A stretch of 58,056 bases of DNA from a virus. The notes below the pieces were generated by a model. That model was not told the DNA's origin. It saw only the letters and a list, made by a program, of their open reading frames with translations, and did no database searches. A program made the position numbers and the translations under genes. The stretch spans positions 1 to 58,056 of IMG/VR virus record IMGVR_UViG_3300021373_003097; one strand, written 5' to 3'. Position 1 is the first letter of the stretch. Each line of letters begins with the position of its first letter. This document shows positions 31,904-46,495 of this stretch, piece by piece.

Positions 31904-33829
31904 TTGGCTGATAACTATCCATTCGACTCAGATAACGTACCGTACAGCGCAGTCTTTAACCAAGACTATACTGCTGACAGCGCTATAGCTGTTTCTACAC
32001 TATTTTCTACGACTACACCAGTGTCCTTGATCACTATTATTGGTGGAGCAGGTGGTACTTCTGGCGGGGTTGGCGGTACAGGTGGGTCAGTTACAACCTT
32101 AGATACTACCTATAGTGCTTCTCGGGGTTCTTACTCTGGCGGAGATGGTGGAGCTGGTGGCGGTGCTCTTGGTAATGGAGCCGGAGGTGGTGGAGCTGCA
32201 GGATACTCTGGTGCAGGTGGAGATGCTGGATCCGCTGGAACAGGTGGAGCTGGAGGAGGCGGTGGTGCTTCTACTAATCAGCTGTTACTTGGCGGTGGCG
32301 GTGTAGGTCTATTCGGTGAAGGAACATCAGGTGCTGCTGGTACTGATTCTACTGCAGCGGGCGGTGGTTCTTCCTTTACTACGATTCATGGTGATCCATA
32401 CTTAGGTAACGTTACATTACTTCTAACTGGCGATAGCACGATAACCCCAGTTAACTTTGGAAGGTCAGACGGATTCTCTGCTACATATCATAACGCCTAC
32501 CCCGATTCAGCTGGTGCCTTTACAACTGGTAAGTATGGTAGCGCATTCTCTTTCAATGGTGAAGATCAATATATTTCTTTAACCGGTGGGGATTTGTCTG
32601 GCGGTGACTGGACCATTGAGATGTGGGTTAATTATGATAGCATGACTCAATTCTCAGGGCCAATTGCTACTGATATGGATAAGGTACTACCAGCGGGTAA
32701 TACAGCAGGGGAATTTGATTTCCATATTCGAACCACAACCGCGCCTCACCGTATGTCTTTTTTCGTTAGAAATGATGGCAGTTCCCCGACAACTTTTGAT
32801 ATTGAAAATGATAGCGTAGCAATTACTGCTGGAACCTGGCACCATGTCGCAGCTTCATTTGTATCCTCTACTAATACTATATATGTAGGTGTTGACGGTA
32901 CAGTGTCCTCGAGTACGAACGCTGCATTTGCAAGTATTTCATTAGGTGCTGAAGATGCGCTTCAGATTGGCAAAAATAGAACTAACAACCAATTTTTTAA
33001 TGGTCAGATCGATGATATACGGTTAACCAAAGGTGTAGCACGATATACCTCTAGCTATACGGTACCCGCAGCAGCGCATTCTTCAGCACCTGGGGCTAGT
33101 GGAACGGATGGGTTTATTGATAGTGATGGTGCGCTGCTTAATTTTTCTTCAGCCCCCACCGGCACAATCAATGTTATTGACTATTCTACTGCTCCTGTAA
33201 CCAGTGGATTGATCATACATCTTGATGCGGGAGTAACTTCATCATACCCTGGTTCTGGATCAACATGGTACGACATTACTGCAAACAACAATGATTTTAC
33301 TCTTACTAACAGTCCGACTTATTCAAGCGCCAACGGGGGCAAGTTTCAGTTTAATGGTACTAATCAGTATGCCACCGGAGGGCCAAACCTAAGTACGTCT
33401 AACTGTACAACTATTGCTATTCAAAGGTATGCTACTAATAACAATAGCGCTAGAGGTAGAGTTACTGCCGGTAATGCTAACAACTGGCTCTTGGGCATAT
33501 GGGGTAATAATACATCAGTTTACTACGCTAATGGATGGCTTACTCCTACCAATACCGGAACTGATACTGACTGGCACATTCATGCTGGTACTGAAAACTA
33601 CAGTGGCGATTCTAGAGTTTTGTATGATAACAATGCTGTGGTTTCCGGGCAGACTGCTAGCGGTGGTTCTCAGGGACCAAATGGGTTTTCCATAGGTAGA
33701 TGGGGGGCTGGAAGTAGTGAGTATTCAGATTGTGAAGTAGCAGTGCTTCTAGTTTATAACAGGGTGCTTAGTACAACCGAGTTAACTACTATATTCGATT
33801 TCTATAAAAGTAGATTTGGAATTTCTTAA
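31904..33829 (+). CDS. Glycine-rich adhesin with two concanavalin/LamG-like domains
   Basis: The start is TTG at 31904, preceded by GGAGAAG. After a short head (FDSDNVPYSAVFNQDYTADS), residues about 47-155 are a polyglycine region (GGAGGTSGG, GGAGGGALGNGAGGGGAAG) like the glycine-rich adhesin domain of phage gp38-type receptor binders. Residues about 170-395 read as a laminin-G/concanavalin-like lectin domain (KYGSAFSFNGEDQYISL, WTIEMWVNYDS, GTWHHVAASFVSSTNTIYVG, GQIDDIRLTKGVARY). A second similar domain follows (GLIIHLDAG, WYDITANNNDFTLTNSP, GGKFQFNGTNQYATG, about 430-641). The combination strongly suggests glycan binding at the tail tip. Ligand unknown. Confidence 0.8.
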   Translation: MADNYPFDSDNVPYSAVFNQDYTADSAIAVSTLFSTTTPVSLITIIGGAGGTSGGVGGTGGSVTTLDTTYSASRGSYSGGDGGAGGGALGNGAGGGGAAGYSGAGGDAGSAGTGGAGGGGGASTNQLLLGGGGVGLFGEGTSGAAGTDSTAAGGGSSFTTIHGDPYLGNVTLLLTGDSTITPVNFGRSDGFSATYHNAYPDSAGAFTTGKYGSAFSFNGEDQYISLTGGDLSGGDWTIEMWVNYDSMTQFSGPIATDMDKVLPAGNTAGEFDFHIRTTTAPHRMSFFVRNDGSSPTTFDIENDSVAITAGTWHHVAASFVSSTNTIYVGVDGTVSSSTNAAFASISLGAEDALQIGKNRTNNQFFNGQIDDIRLTKGVARYTSSYTVPAAAHSSAPGASGTDGFIDSDGALLNFSSAPTGTINVIDYSTAPVTSGLIIHLDAGVTSSYPGSGSTWYDITANNNDFTLTNSPTYSSANGGKFQFNGTNQYATGGPNLSTSNCTTIAIQRYATNNNSARGRVTAGNANNWLLGIWGNNTSVYYANGWLTPTNTGTDTDWHIHAGTENYSGDSRVLYDNNAVVSGQTASGGSQGPNGFSIGRWGAGSSEYSDCEVAVLLVYNRVLSTTELTTIFDFYKSRFGIS

Positions 33830-39641: not shown

Positions 39642-41906
39642 ATGGCAATAGTTCTACGCTCTTTAAAAGGATCTGCTCTAACATTTAGTCAGTTAGACAA
39701 CAACTTCTCTGAACTTGATTCGAGAATCTTAGATTCTAGCGAAGTGTCCGATATCATTGACTCTGACTACATTCAATCAAGACAGCTTCTCACTACTCCA
39801 GCTGAAGGTCTAGATTCAGACGCAGTCATTGATCTGGTAGATTCAGATTATATTGAAGCTAGATTTGGAGACACCTTCGATTCTGACTATGTTAAGGCAA
39901 GAATGCTTTCATTGGATGGGGGTGTCTTAAATCAGAAGTACGGAGAGTACATTCATGATCCTAATCCGATAGTCTTCAGCGTAGTAGTTTCATCTAAGAC
40001 TTCAGCTCACAGATATCAAGGTACAGGCTCATCTAACGGATATGTGATTGAAGGTACTGAAGGACCGTTCATTGAACTCGTACCAGGTAACACTTATCAG
40101 TTCGATCAGTCAGATGCCTCCAACAGCTTCCATCCAATTAAGTTCTATCTTGAGCCAGACCAGACTACACTGTATGAGACTGGAGTAACATATGCAGGTA
40201 CTCCTGGTCAAGCCGGTGGGAGAACTCAGATCGTAGTAAGTGACAGCACTCCAGGTACTCTGTATTACATGTGTGAGAATCATAGCTACATGGGTAACGC
40301 TGTACATACAATGAATAACGTTGCAGGATTTGATGGAGCTTTCTCATCCTTAACAGGAACTCCTACTACACTTTCTGGTTATGGTATCACGGATGCTCAA
40401 GCAACCTTAGTATCAGGTACAAACATTAAGACGATCAATGGGTCATCACTGGTCGGATCTGGTGATTTAATCGTAAGCGGAGGTACTGCATACGGAGATG
40501 CAAACGTAGATTCTAACCTGAATACTAATACTGCAACTTCTGGTCAGGTTCTTTCTTGGACCGGCACTGACTACGATTGGGTCGCTCAGACGGGCGGATC
40601 AGGTTCTTCTGTTACAGTAAGTCACATTGTAGACATGAGTCTCCTTGACTCTGTAGGCAGAGCAGGTACACTTCTCTCTGCAGCTCTCGGTGTAGGTGAT
40701 GGTGTCTACTATGACTCCGACGCTGGAGTATGGACAGGGGCCTATAAAGATTCAGCTCATGTAGCTTCTCATGTTATTGTAAGTTACAATACATCTGCCA
40801 GTGAATTTAAGATCGCTCAGACAGGTATCTTTACACTCGACTCTGATGGTGGAGCTCCTACTCTTAAAAAGAACGCGTACTTCTTCTTAGCTGACTCTGC
40901 AGGACTGACTCCAGTAACAACCTCCCCTGACTCTGGAATCTACCAGTCGCTGTTCTATACACTTGATTCTAATATCATTGATGTAAACGTTAGTGAAGCT
41001 CAGAAGTCAGTGATAGCGACAGGTGGCGGAGGCGGAGGCGGTACTTCATATACAGATGCAAATTTAGATTCGCATTTAAATACAAACACTGCCACTTCAA
41101 ACCAAATACTTGCTTGGAACGGTAGTGATTATGATTGGCGTGCTCAGAGAAGTGTCTACAACTCTATAGAGAGCCTAGACTCCCCTAGTGGATCTCAAAC
41201 CGGAATACATGCAGTAAACACTACTAGCGGCACAATAACGTTCGTTGGTACTGGCGGAATTTCAGTAGATGTTAGTGGAGGCTCTGGGTCTTCAGTAAGC
41301 GACAGCGCATATATTGTAATTGACGGAACAGGTGTAGGCGGCGGAGGATCCGGCGACATCACTGCTGTAAACATCACAGCTGGCACGGGTCTGACTGGAA
41401 CAGTGAGCACAGCATCTGGCGACCACACTCAAACGCTAGCTCTTGACTCAGCGGGTATTGGAGCAGGCACCTACGGCAGCACGAGCAACACGACTAAGAT
41501 CGACACTATCACCGTCGACGCTTATGGTCGAGTAACGAATGTAGCGACTGGAGGTATCAGCGCAACTGCATCTGCAGGAGGATCAAGCACTCAAGTTCAA
41601 TACAATAGCGGTGGAGCTTTAGCGGGTGATGCCGGAATGGTTTATAATGCTACTACTAATACTCTTACTGTAGAGAACCTTGAAGTTACTGGATCTGGAT
41701 CTACAAATACAATTTCTTCTTCTGGAGACGTTGTCTTAGATGCAGGAAACAGAGTTAGAGTAGATGGCACGGTACCATTTAGACTACCTAATGTTACGAC
41801 TACTCAGCAGAACGCGATTGGAGCTGCAGCGGGTGATCTGGTGTTCAACACTTCAACTGGTAAAGTAACAGTCTATACCGGTTCAGCTTGGGTGGCACTG
41901 CACTAA
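39642..41906 (+). CDS. Tail fibre with cupredoxin-like (type-1 copper) domain
   Basis: A 754-residue fibre. The N-terminus has FSQLDNNFSELDSRILDSSE (about 15-34), a motif shared with fibres at 3802 and 7562, then DSDYI/V repeats. Residues about 108-225 look like a cupredoxin: PFIELVPGNTYQFDQSD, SNSFHPIKF with H164, and YYMCENHSYMGN with C211, H214, M217. C-x2-H-x2-M is the amicyanin spacing. Residues about 325-455 repeat a domain of the 3802 fibre (LLDSVGRAGTLL, GVGDGVYYDSDAGVWTGAY). The end (VRVDGTVPFRLPNV, VYTGSAWVALH) is a common fibre terminus. Copper binding is a prediction; a purely structural cupredoxin fold is also possible. Confidence 0.78.
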   Translation: MAIVLRSLKGSALTFSQLDNNFSELDSRILDSSEVSDIIDSDYIQSRQLLTTPAEGLDSDAVIDLVDSDYIEARFGDTFDSDYVKARMLSLDGGVLNQKYGEYIHDPNPIVFSVVVSSKTSAHRYQGTGSSNGYVIEGTEGPFIELVPGNTYQFDQSDASNSFHPIKFYLEPDQTTLYETGVTYAGTPGQAGGRTQIVVSDSTPGTLYYMCENHSYMGNAVHTMNNVAGFDGAFSSLTGTPTTLSGYGITDAQATLVSGTNIKTINGSSLVGSGDLIVSGGTAYGDANVDSNLNTNTATSGQVLSWTGTDYDWVAQTGGSGSSVTVSHIVDMSLLDSVGRAGTLLSAALGVGDGVYYDSDAGVWTGAYKDSAHVASHVIVSYNTSASEFKIAQTGIFTLDSDGGAPTLKKNAYFFLADSAGLTPVTTSPDSGIYQSLFYTLDSNIIDVNVSEAQKSVIATGGGGGGGTSYTDANLDSHLNTNTATSNQILAWNGSDYDWRAQRSVYNSIESLDSPSGSQTGIHAVNTTSGTITFVGTGGISVDVSGGSGSSVSDSAYIVIDGTGVGGGGSGDITAVNITAGTGLTGTVSTASGDHTQTLALDSAGIGAGTYGSTSNTTKIDTITVDAYGRVTNVATGGISATASAGGSSTQVQYNSGGALAGDAGMVYNATTNTLTVENLEVTGSGSTNTISSSGDVVLDAGNRVRVDGTVPFRLPNVTTTQQNAIGAAAGDLVFNTSTGKVTVYTGSAWVALH

Positions 41907-43474
41907 TGGAAAAAGAATACGTAGTTACACTTAAGAATGCAGAAGACGCAGATCAGTTCTATTCAGAGATGACAGCTTCTTCTGGAGACGGAGTTGTTCC
42001 TAATAGAACAGTTGATGTTGTAAACGCCAGACCAGGTAGTCTTCGTAATACTGAATACTCTCTAACAGAAGAAGAAGCCGCAGCTCTTAAAGAAGATGAT
42101 AGAGTATTAGACGTAGAGATTCCAGTGCACTTAATGGAAAATGTTAGTTCTGGCCCTGCACTAACTCAGACCGGAGATTTTGATAAAACGACTTCTAGTA
42201 CAGGTGATAATATAAACTGGGGATTGATTAGAAGCAACAATACAGCTAATAACTATGGCCTTGGATCAGCTACATCTGAAAATTATAATTATTTCTTAGA
42301 TGGTACCGGAGTAGACATTGTCGTTAAAGATTCTGGGATTGAAGCCAATCACCCAGAATGGGAAGATGCCAACGGCACAAGTAGACTTCAGCAGATAAAC
42401 TGGTACACTGAGGCTGGAGTTTCAGGTACACAGAGCTCTTCATTTTACACAGATAACAGCGGCCACGGTACGCATGTTGCTGGCATTGCCGCCGGTAAAA
42501 ATTATGGCTGGGCAAAAGGTGCTAGAATATATGCCATGAAAATTGAAGGCACCGGCGCGATAGCAGAATCTGGAGTAACATATTCTGCGTATGATCTAAT
42601 TAGGCTTTGGCACAATAATAAGCCAGTAGATCCAGCCACTGGATATAAAAGACCAACAATTGTAAACTCTAGTTGGGGCTGGTACAACACTTTTACAGTG
42701 GTTCCAACTAATTATGGCTTAAACTATAGAGGAGTTTCATATTTAGGGGCTTCTATAGATACTGCAGCTGAACGTTTAGCTAAGGGGTGGAGAGGCGATC
42801 AGACCAATTATGAGCAACCATTTCGCAACACTGCTATAGACGCAGAAGTAGAGGATATGATTAATGCCGGCGTGATTTTTGTTCATGCTGCCGGAAACTA
42901 TGGATTTAAAATTGATTTACCAGGTGGTCCTGATTATAATAATTATTCATACAACCTCAATAATAATAATGGAAGATACAACCAAGGCATGAGCCCAACA
43001 GGAGCGTCAAACAGAAATAACGGCTTTGGAGATTCAATCGAAGTCGGAGCAATTGATAGGGCTGCATACTCTTCTAGCTTAGATCAAAGAACTGTCTATA
43101 GTAATACTGGACCTGGAGTAGATATCTATGCTCCAGGGGAAAATATAATGAGTGCATGGAGAACTGCTACTGGAGGACAATATGGAAGTGGATCTACATA
43201 TTTTTGGAATTCAAGCTATAGACAAAAAAATATAGGCGGAACTTCGATGGCATGCCCTCAAGTAGCAGGACTTGCAGCATTGGTGGCCCAGCTCAATCCG
43301 CACTTTACTTCAGCGCAGATGAAAGATTATATTAAAACAAAGTGCTCAACTACTGGATACATATATGATGCTGGAGGAAATAATAATTTTTCAGATGGTC
43401 GCGCTTTATATGGTGGCGGAGACTTATTCTTAAAAAATCCATTTAACAGTCAGTACTCATACCAGGTAGGATAA
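41906..43474 (+). CDS. Subtilisin-like serine protease (peptidase S8)
   Basis: Start chosen at the ATG overlapping the preceding TAA. The 522-residue protein has a short inhibitor-I9-like start (EYVVTLKNAEDADQFYSEM), then an S8 catalytic core with all four key residues: D142 in VVKDSGIEANHPEW, H187 in NSGHGTHVAGIAAG, oxyanion N331 in FVHAAGNYG and S447 in GGTSMACPQVAGLAAL. No signal peptide or transmembrane segment is seen, so the enzyme probably reaches the outside as a virion protein. It lies between fibre and collagen-like genes, suggesting a role in processing fibres or digesting a host surface protein. Family assignment is certain; substrate is not. Confidence 0.93.
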   Translation: MEKEYVVTLKNAEDADQFYSEMTASSGDGVVPNRTVDVVNARPGSLRNTEYSLTEEEAAALKEDDRVLDVEIPVHLMENVSSGPALTQTGDFDKTTSSTGDNINWGLIRSNNTANNYGLGSATSENYNYFLDGTGVDIVVKDSGIEANHPEWEDANGTSRLQQINWYTEAGVSGTQSSSFYTDNSGHGTHVAGIAAGKNYGWAKGARIYAMKIEGTGAIAESGVTYSAYDLIRLWHNNKPVDPATGYKRPTIVNSSWGWYNTFTVVPTNYGLNYRGVSYLGASIDTAAERLAKGWRGDQTNYEQPFRNTAIDAEVEDMINAGVIFVHAAGNYGFKIDLPGGPDYNNYSYNLNNNNGRYNQGMSPTGASNRNNGFGDSIEVGAIDRAAYSSSLDQRTVYSNTGPGVDIYAPGENIMSAWRTATGGQYGSGSTYFWNSSYRQKNIGGTSMACPQVAGLAALVAQLNPHFTSAQMKDYIKTKCSTTGYIYDAGGNNNFSDGRALYGGGDLFLKNPFNSQYSYQVG

Positions 43475-43479
43475 AAAAA

Positions 43480-43893
43480 ATGGCAAGAGTAAATTCAAAC
43501 TTAAACACTGGTACAACTGGAGACACTGGGCCTCAAGGACCTCAGGGGATTCAGGGCACGGCTGGAAATGATGGAACTAATGGCGCCGACGGAGGACGAA
43601 ATATTCCTCAGGCTACTAGCACTACCGTAACTACAGCAGATGCAGGTGATCACCTCTTAGTCTCTTCTGATGTCACCATCAATACATCTACTGGATTTTC
43701 AGCAGGAGACGTTGTGACTATCGTCAACAATTCCGACGTCACTATTGATATCATACACTCTGGTCTCACAGTTTACTTAGCTGGTACAGCACAAGCCATT
43801 GCATCCCCAAGAACATTGGCGGCTAGAGGAGTGGCTTCAGCCCTGTGCACAGCTAGTAATACATACTACATAAGCGGAGCTGGACTTACATAA
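43480..43893 (+). CDS. Collagen-like repeat protein
   Basis: A 137-residue protein starting 5 bp after the protease. Residues about 10-40 are Gly-X-Y triplets (TGDTGPQGPQGIQGTAGNDG, TNGADGG) of the kind that form phage collagen-like trimers. The rest is a beta-rich domain (DHLLVSSDVTINTST, VVTIVNNSDVTIDI, ASNTYYISGAGLT) probably capping or trimerising the stalk. Its last base is the first base of the next ATG. Likely a short trimeric adhesin stalk in the same set as the protease and propeller. Confidence 0.75.
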   Translation: MARVNSNLNTGTTGDTGPQGPQGIQGTAGNDGTNGADGGRNIPQATSTTVTTADAGDHLLVSSDVTINTSTGFSAGDVVTIVNNSDVTIDIIHSGLTVYLAGTAQAIASPRTLAARGVASALCTASNTYYISGAGLT

Positions 43894-46235
43894 TGGCTTT
43901 AGTACAAGCATTAATGATGGCATATAGAAAAGAAGTTGCGTTTCCAGTTGAGAGCGGAATGGCTTCTGGAGATATTCCGATTGAACAATGGTTTGACCAT
44001 CCTAGTGAAGAGTCTGGTAATTTTGAAGGGTGGGCCGTAGCTGTTTCTGGAGATGGACTAACAGCCGTTATCGGTGCGCCTGAAGACAGTAGCCAGGTAA
44101 CTGATGGTGGAAGAGTCACTATTTGGGAATACCAATCTGGAACTTGGACATATGTAAGAGCAATTGGTCAAGATACTGCTGATAGGTCAACAGATGATAA
44201 ACTTGGTTACTCTGTAGATATTTCCTATGATGGTTCGGTGATTGTAGTTGGCGCTGAGAACTCTAGGCACGGCGGCACTACCGGCACTAGAACTGGAGTT
44301 GCTTATGTTTTTGAAAGACCATCAGGTGGTTGGTCTACACTAACAGCCAGCACTGCGGCTGGAGCCAAGCTTAGACCTACAACATCAAATATTATTATGA
44401 ACTTTGGTCTTTCAGTGGCAGTTTCAGGAGATGGAAACACTGTTGTGGTCGGTGCACCAGACGATAGTAATACGACAGTCTCAGGTTACTACGGATTGGT
44501 CTATCTTTTTGAAAAACCTTCTGGAGGATGGGTGGACACATATGAAGACTATGTATTATATACTAACTTTAACACTAGTTCAAATGATGATTTAGGCACA
44601 GCTGTAGATATTTCTCATGATGGCTCGGTAGTAGTTGCTGGTGCACCAGAGTATGATGTAAGCAGCGGTGTTAATAACGGAGCTGTTGGAGTCTTTGAAA
44701 AAGGAAGTGGGTGGAGTACCGGCAGTGGTAATCATGTTGACACTTTGTTTTCTAAAGATCTTAACTCTTCGCAGAATAGTGAAGAGTTTGGATCTTCAGT
44801 TGCAATTTCAGCTGATGCTAATGTGATTGTAGTCGGCGCACCGCGGGATCCGACTAATTCTGGACAAACCATATCCGGAAGTGCGTATGTTCACCTTAGA
44901 AAAACTACCGGTGATCTTTTATGGAATACATTCGGTGACGCTCAGTTAGCCCAAAGCTTTACAACTTCTAATGGTCACCAATTAGGAATATCGGTAGATG
45001 TATCTAATACTGGAAAGGTCATAGTTGTTGGAGCTAAAGGTTTTGATGATACAAGTCAAACGGATGTTGGAGCAGTCTTTGTCTACACTGAGCCAACAGG
45101 AGGTTGGACTTCCGGAATCGATAATGGATCAGGTGATCCACCTCTCACAGAAGATTATGTGATTACTCCTTCTAGTGGTTGGTCCAGTCAATCATATGGA
45201 AACTCTGTATCAATCTCAGATGATGCAACAAAAATGATAACAGCTGCGTATGAAGCAGATCATCCGTATTATCTTAGTAATATGACAACAGCTGAATATG
45301 ATACTATTGGAGCTATTTATGGGTATACGCATTCACCACTCTTGACCAACTGGGGTTCTTCTATAACTGGGATAACTGGTGGGACCGCTGGGGGAGCTGA
45401 AATAATAAACCTTGAAAGAGATTCAGTATGTGCAGTTCTAGATGCAAGTGGAAACCGTGTAGATGGTTACCTCTGGCACGCTTATCGTACAGGAGGAGGG
45501 GCTACTGGTGTTGACTATATAGATATTGAACTTTTAAAAGGTGATGCGAATACCGGGCAACTTGAATCAGTGTATAAGCACCGGTGCTATGAAGAAGATT
45601 ATGCTCGTTGGAAACCTAATCATGTATGTGATACTGGAACCAGTTTAGTTTTAACTACTACAGAAAATCAGTATGATAATGCTAGAGTCTTAGTCGTAAA
45701 AAAGATAACGGGTGAAACTTTCAGACTAAACACAACAAATACAAATTTCCCTGCAATGGCCAATAGCTTACAGTACAGCGGAAATAACTTTTGGGGTGAT
45801 CTATTTAGTTGTGTGTATGATCCTGTCTATGATGACGTGATCTTAGCGTATGCAGATCCTTTAACTAATTTTGCAAATAGCACTTATCATAATAAGTTTG
45901 TCAGGTTTACTAACTATAATAGTACTACTACTACTTTTGGTGAAACATGTAATGTTAGTGTTGGAAGTTCTGGATTTACTAGAGCAGTTGATGCTAATCA
46001 GGCAGAAGGCTATATAGATCGTGATCCTGACACTGGTTATTTTGTTTATAGTGGATTAAATCAAAAGTGTAGAAGATATCAGCGCACAGGGACTAATACT
46101 TTTGTTGCTATTGACGAGTTTACCAGAGCCTCTAGCAATCTATGGCAACTTATATATCAGAATGATGGAACACTGTACTTTAGAGGTGAAAACTCCAGTG
46201 GAAGTTATAATCAAGAAACACTCTATAGACATTAA
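43893..46235 (+). CDS. FG-GAP seven-bladed (integrin-alpha-like) propeller adhesin
   Basis: A 780-residue protein with seven consecutive FG-GAP-type repeats starting near residues 45, 104, 171, 234, 299, 364 and 435 (spacing 59-71), each with an xGxSVxIS-D-G/A-xxVVVGAP core (FGLSVAVSGDGNTVVVGAPD, FGSSVAISADANVIVVGAPR). Several blades end in VYLFEKPSGGW-like strands. Seven such units make an integrin-alpha-type propeller. Residues about 490-780 are a second, distinct beta domain with several cysteines (VYKHRCYEEDY, LNQKCRRYQR). DxxxDG-like loops may bind calcium. It is translationally coupled to the collagen-like gene. Presumably a ligand-binding virion head; target unknown. Confidence 0.8.
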   Translation: MALVQALMMAYRKEVAFPVESGMASGDIPIEQWFDHPSEESGNFEGWAVAVSGDGLTAVIGAPEDSSQVTDGGRVTIWEYQSGTWTYVRAIGQDTADRSTDDKLGYSVDISYDGSVIVVGAENSRHGGTTGTRTGVAYVFERPSGGWSTLTASTAAGAKLRPTTSNIIMNFGLSVAVSGDGNTVVVGAPDDSNTTVSGYYGLVYLFEKPSGGWVDTYEDYVLYTNFNTSSNDDLGTAVDISHDGSVVVAGAPEYDVSSGVNNGAVGVFEKGSGWSTGSGNHVDTLFSKDLNSSQNSEEFGSSVAISADANVIVVGAPRDPTNSGQTISGSAYVHLRKTTGDLLWNTFGDAQLAQSFTTSNGHQLGISVDVSNTGKVIVVGAKGFDDTSQTDVGAVFVYTEPTGGWTSGIDNGSGDPPLTEDYVITPSSGWSSQSYGNSVSISDDATKMITAAYEADHPYYLSNMTTAEYDTIGAIYGYTHSPLLTNWGSSITGITGGTAGGAEIINLERDSVCAVLDASGNRVDGYLWHAYRTGGGATGVDYIDIELLKGDANTGQLESVYKHRCYEEDYARWKPNHVCDTGTSLVLTTTENQYDNARVLVVKKITGETFRLNTTNTNFPAMANSLQYSGNNFWGDLFSCVYDPVYDDVILAYADPLTNFANSTYHNKFVRFTNYNSTTTTFGETCNVSVGSSGFTRAVDANQAEGYIDRDPDTGYFVYSGLNQKCRRYQRTGTNTFVAIDEFTRASSNLWQLIYQNDGTLYFRGENSSGSYNQETLYRH

Positions 46236-46255
46236 TAATATGAAAGTGAATAGAT

Positions 46256-46495
46256 ATGATAATGACAGAATTGACAAAGGGGATATTCAAACTCCTTAAA
46301 AGACTCATTGGTGAGTCAAGCATTGCATTAGCAATCATTTATACTATCGGGCATATCTTTATTGCCACGATCTGCAACTGGTTAATCACCGGTGCAGCTA
46401 TGGAGTTAGCGGCTATAGATGCTATTGTAGAACCCATCATTAACGGGATCTGGTTCTACGTACTCCATAAACTAGCAAAGAGATTTATTAAGTGA
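46256..46495 (+). CDS. Small membrane protein (DUF2061-like, two helices)
   Basis: A 79-residue protein with two hydrophobic helices (about 22-44, SSIALAIIYTIGHIFIATIC, and about 60-75, VEPIINGIWFYVLHKLA) and basic ends (KGIFKLLKRLIGES, KLAKRFIK). The shape and text resemble DUF2061 membrane proteins. Its stop overlaps the GTG start of gp17 (GTGA). It could be a holin-like or superinfection-related protein, or a membrane anchor, but none of these is shown. The only membrane protein recognised in the window. Confidence 0.65.
   Translation: MIMTELTKGIFKLLKRLIGESSIALAIIYTIGHIFIATICNWLITGAAMELAAIDAIVEPIINGIWFYVLHKLAKRFIK

Follow-up and report, generated by a model that had tools for sequence, protein, structure and literature searches.

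Cupredoxins are familiar both as small electron-carrying proteins and as domains of enzymes. Their type 1 copper ligand set consists of His, Cys, His and Met; the last three have the spacing C-x2-H-x2-M in the ligand loop of amicyanin, and the distance from the first His to the Cys is 47 residues in plastocyanin and 39 in amicyanin. Plastocyanin, azurin, pseudoazurin and amicyanin belong to the Pfam family PF00127 (Copper-bind). Residues 105-230 of a putative tail-fibre protein encoded in the window (the whole stretch of DNA analysed here, a 58-kb IMG/VR record of 58,056 nucleotides from a marine T4-like phage) are, judged by sequence, conservation and predicted fold, a cupredoxin domain in which all four candidate copper-binding residues are intact. 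The domain has in common with PF00127 the fold (by model), the four ligands in register, the Y-x-C end of a strand and the loop between the last two strands. It differs from this family in scoring below the Pfam cut-off, in an N-terminal part that is longer and contains a GSGSSNGY insertion, in having HP rather than HN after the first ligand, and in being embedded in a fibre instead of forming a free periplasmic protein.

The same domain is contained in PHROG 30742 (tail fiber protein) and a sister domain in PHROG 677 (cyanophage gp9 connector), both annotated only as fibre or connector, with copper and cupredoxin absent from the records seen. Metal in tail fibres is already known for iron: in the HxH iron-binding fibres (T4 gp37, alterophage R22Y) metal ions are found on, or proposed for, the phage adsorption apparatus (PMC11705849). 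Unlike the domain described here, these fibres have octahedral sites, no cupredoxin fold and neither a Cys nor a Met ligand. No description of cupredoxins in phage tail fibres, virion proteins or baseplates was found in the open-access papers searched; the lone matches (Borgs; coccolith matrix) concern, judged by title and abstract, other subjects.

The fibre gene and its four candidate ligands

The window encodes neck proteins, a sheath stabilizer, terminases and the sheath, and its large terminase is closest to the record of Kyanoviridae phage C48C1 (70 %). The fibre ORF (Table 1) has T4-like neck and terminase genes on one side and terL and sheath genes on the other. Its assignment as a tail fibre is putative and is based on homology to a fibre family, on the fibre annotation of its relatives and on its place in a virion gene block; the stretch that matched PHROG 30742 best was the cupredoxin domain itself. 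In C48C1 the small terminase gene adjoins the large one; in the window the fibre gene and those for a subtilase, a collagen-like protein and an FG-GAP protein lie between the two. The gene of a cupredoxin-bearing fibre likewise comes after the small terminase gene in phages Bellamy and P-TIM68.

Table 1 Features of the window discussed in the text
Feature	Position	Strand	Basis or remark
Putative tail-fibre protein, 754 aa, holding the cupredoxin domain	39642..41906	+	match to PHROG 30742 tail fiber protein
Predicted cupredoxin domain, residues 105-230	39954..40332	+	AlphaFold2 model, Foldseek, PF00127 profile comparison
H164 (CAT, in SNSFHPIKF), first type 1 copper ligand candidate	40131..40133	+	
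C211, ligand candidate	40272..40274	+	sole Cys of the 754-aa fibre
H214, ligand candidate	40281..40283	+	
M217, axial ligand candidate	40290..40292	+	
Accessory cassette: fibre, S8 subtilase, collagen-like protein, FG-GAP protein, small ORF	39642..46495	+	domain matches; terminase genes adjoin in C48C1
S8 subtilase adjoining the fibre	41888-43474		in virion gene block
Collagen-like GPQGPQG protein, then FG-GAP repeat protein	43480-46235		within accessory cassette
LamG-like domain (PF13385)	31904-33829		virion gene region

Besides a protease part, the family of the window subtilase, phrog_9158, has a stretch (positions 590-693 of 696) matching the cupredoxin domain, which makes it probable that subtilase and cupredoxin are fused in proteins elsewhere. 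A very long S8 protein of S-BM3 also gave a partial match to the domain.

Translation of the ORF placed H164, C211, H214 and M217 where the first-pass annotation had them. The pattern H-x34-60-C-x2-H-x2-M had a single occurrence in the window (six frames, open stretches of at least 70 aa), and 20,000 shuffled versions of the fibre sequence contained none. A disulfide role for C211 was rejected, as the fibre has a single Cys. Two other readings were also rejected: a stand-alone phage plastocyanin, the domain being embedded in the fibre, and a frameshift or misassembly, the same domain being present in many phages.

The first-pass annotation had ascribed to the fibre the ligand set and spacing of amicyanin. 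The C-x2-H-x2-M loop and an upstream His are indeed common to both, whereas the distance of H164 to C211 is 47 residues, as in plastocyanin and not as in amicyanin. Amicyanin (3ply, Foldseek rank 38) is one of many fold matches and not the closest, and the fibre is not known to have a methylamine dehydrogenase partner. The amicyanin label was dropped.

Sequence homology and predicted fold

Pfam and NCBIfam scans of the domain and 18 relatives gave no significant match. The curated cut-off of Copper-bind was not reached by the domain itself or elsewhere in the window, and a single-sequence search of the PDB with the domain gave chance matches only. In profile searches the best match was a pseudoazurin, with E-values of 0.06 and 0.15 that are not significant. 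Profile comparison with PF00127 cupredoxins, drawn from genomes also carrying the domain, placed H, C and H in register with a probability of 76-87 %.

An alignment of 16 phage loci, the window and one viral contig (A1) had as its only invariant columns Y48, F50, H60, F64, C107, H110, M113 and G114 in domain numbering, in which H60, C107, H110 and M113 correspond to H164, C211, H214 and M217. The A1 profile reached a second phage subfamily with the signature HPFYIKT...YYxCxxHxxM (E-values down to about 5e-18). One phage copy of this subfamily, a sister domain from cyanophage ACG-2014j, scored 21.5 against the Pfam Copper-bind cut-off of 21.2, and two cellular members reached 33-35 bits with the same model. 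The Tyr of Y-x-C and the four ligands remained invariant when a plastocyanin and a pseudoazurin-like protein were included in joint alignments. The HPFYIKT subfamily thus forms a bridge to PF00127, by which the window domain is a cupredoxin through transitive homology, though unnamed by Pfam; in the aligned sequences the type 1 ligands His, Cys, His and Met fall in the right positions of the fold.

The AlphaFold2 model of residues 105-230, based on 68 aligned sequences, had a pLDDT of 94.4 and a pTM of 0.87. In this model C211 ends a strand, H214 and M217 lie in the next loop and H164 stands just ahead of an earlier strand, which is the cupredoxin layout. The best 50 Foldseek matches in the PDB all had the cupredoxin fold, with modest E-values (best 3.2e-3); they included nitrite reductases, rusticyanin, laccases and other multicopper oxidases, a purple cupredoxin, amicyanin and a chain of coagulation factor Va, which is built of the same fold. 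The matches covered most of the domain, which by predicted fold places it in the cupredoxin superfamily. The solved structures nearest in fold were three-domain copper nitrite reductase, in its N-terminal cupredoxin domain (2dv6, 6tfd; about 100 residues aligned with Z 9.1-9.0 and 16-18 % identity), small laccases and rusticyanin; the fibre has no enzyme domains. VIA-align 2 gave a Z of 9.1 over 103 residues for the nitrite reductase domain and about 8 for small laccases, values slightly above the noise range of the tool, so that the case for the fold is carried by sequence and by how consistent the match list is. The cupredoxin fold expected in the first-pass annotation was borne out by the model, the match list, the profile comparison and the ligand conservation, and no other fold appeared in the structure prediction.

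A second AlphaFold2 model, of a copy without ligands, had a pLDDT of 82 and matched generic antibody domains with E-values of 0.04 or worse, which indicates that a generic beta-sandwich alone does not return cupredoxins.

Distribution of the domain and conservation of the ligands

With tblastn the domain was found in 69 phage records, of cyanophages, pelagiphages, Methylophilales phages and marine single-cell or environmental viruses. Profile-guided scanning with a closer subset of sequences (A2) revealed at least 587 relatives in viral contigs, and the domain was present in 28 bacterial or archaeal genome contigs, several of which look like phage sequence within the assembly. The domain is thus common to hundreds of marine viral contigs and not confined to the phage of the window. 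Fourteen phage genomes carried one to five copies each, and the position of the domain along the fibre varied between proteins. Three marine bacterial proteins with the domain were named by eye as a probable Actinomarina surface protein (L118), a SAR116 protein containing RTX-like sequence (L120) and one that partly resembles DUF4214 (L126).

The A1 profile found 133 domains, 129 of them spanning all ligand columns, and H, C, H and M were all kept in 127 of these alignable homologues. The C-x2-H-x2-M loop was free of insertions and deletions in every one of the 127, and the distance from His to Cys was 47 in 96 of them. All four ligands were also present in the 45 domains (45/45) that had been caught solely by a pattern lacking the ligand His, a check on retrieval bias. 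In a non-redundant set of 75 homologues, whose pairwise identity had a median of 50 % and a minimum of 21 %, the four ligands were all within the seven most conserved columns, and both synonymous codons were used for H164, C211 and H214; this is far in excess of chance. In 27 of the 63 complete viral ORFs that contain the domain, there was no Cys other than the ligand. The two domains without ligands were one orthologous Flavobacteriaceae pair, the first of two copies in each protein, from which all four residues had gone together. These are secreted repeat proteins (L124:1545-1847, L125:1509-1808), whose second copy has all four ligands.

Matches to the HPFYIKT subfamily occurred in 353 phage records. 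Almost all of these are of marine cyanophages, and the proteins are often annotated as baseplate wedge tail fiber connector gp9. In the six cyanophage gp9-type proteins inspected (L183-L188, e.g. L184:508-1740) the sister domain was always C-terminal, and it was also found in one longer relative. H, C, H and M were kept in all seven of these proteins, which were read directly, and the ligand Cys was the sole Cys in five. The T4 gp9/10 N-terminal domain was recognised by Pfam in all five of the proteins tested, and in a PDB sequence search with one of these proteins the match was confined to the N-terminal part. In further copies, in large baseplate proteins, most or all of the ligands were lost, from which it follows that the fold can serve without metal.

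The last observation, together with the Flavobacteriaceae pair, would fit a domain descended from cupredoxins that serves as an Ig-like spacer or decoration, with the four residues kept for packing and no metal bound, and Ig-like decorations are common on phages. Against this, His, Cys, His and Met occurred together in 127/129 homologues down to about 21 % identity, with synonymous codon changes, and were lost together; nor does packing by itself account for two His and a free Cys. Such a metal-free descendant was considered rather unlikely. The suggestion in the first-pass annotation that the domain might be only a stable fold is opposed by the same near-invariance, though ligandless copies do exist.

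Possible role of copper in the virion

Sequence, profile and model show the cupredoxin homology, the ligand set, its near-invariance and the modular spread of the domain, and the spread and ligand set suggest that marine phage virions may carry copper. The explanation we favour, and consider fairly probable, is that of a cupredoxin whose type 1 ligand set is complete and which is used as a modular beta-sandwich in the fibres, gp9 and other baseplate proteins of marine tailed phages, with copper as a structural or docking cofactor and not as part of an electron chain. The site would bind one copper ion, probably acquired in the periplasm or, after release, from seawater, and the bound copper would rigidify the ligand loop. 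In cellular cupredoxins the docking face is that around the His equivalent to H214, and this face may serve protein-protein or virus-host contact in the phage. A rigid loop and a contact face at H214 would make copper a structural or docking cofactor rather than a carrier of electrons. Points against this explanation are that phage assembly takes place in the cytoplasm, a compartment with little free copper, and that the domain has a Pro where plastocyanins commonly have Asn after the first His.

The site might instead hold another metal, zinc or, as proposed for HxH fibres, iron. In vitro, the ligands of cupredoxins can accept ions other than copper. Iron occurs in T4 fibre tips and has been proposed for marine phages (PMC11705849). 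However, the combination of His2-Cys-Met and such a loop is that of type 1 copper sites and lines up with copper proteins in the alignments, and the HxH iron motif differs from the motif of the fibre domain; another metal is improbable.

The location of the domain on adsorption proteins raises the possibility that copper acts as bait, the copper-loaded domain being recognised by copper-uptake or surface proteins of the host, a copper version of the Trojan-horse hypothesis put forward for iron (PMC11705849). The domain is, however, also found in gp9 and other baseplate proteins and not only at fibre tips, and its place along the fibre is not constant; this role was judged quite improbable. Binding of the domain to copper-scavenging receptors, raised in the first-pass annotation, is speculation.

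Reduction or oxidation of copper at the host surface could also alter the fibre or gp9 and so help to trigger infection, and the sister domain does end gp9, the connector of baseplate and long fibre, in the six cyanophage proteins inspected. Type 1 copper sites, however, change little in shape on reduction, and no redox partner is known in the virion; a redox switch appears very improbable. A broader proposal, which we regard as unlikely, is that the adsorption machinery of marine T4-like phages as a group bears type 1 copper centres, in gp9 at the fibre joint and in fibre modules, that copper or its redox state is active in attachment or triggering, and that the virions constitute a copper-binding pool in seawater.

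A conserved cupredoxin ready for copper on fibres and gp9 would represent a metal cofactor, apparently not described before, in some of the most common marine viruses, and if copper is bound, this would bear on phage stability, adsorption and the trace-metal chemistry of the ocean. The annotation of hundreds of proteins now listed as 'hypothetical', 'fibre' or 'baseplate' would also improve.

Two BFVD models annotated 'Beta-sandwich protein', A0A481YWX9 and A0A481Z6J5 (Marseillevirus LCMAC201 and Pithovirus LCPAC302), matched most of the length of the domain model with E-values of about 1e-8, suggesting that large eukaryotic viruses may have such domains.
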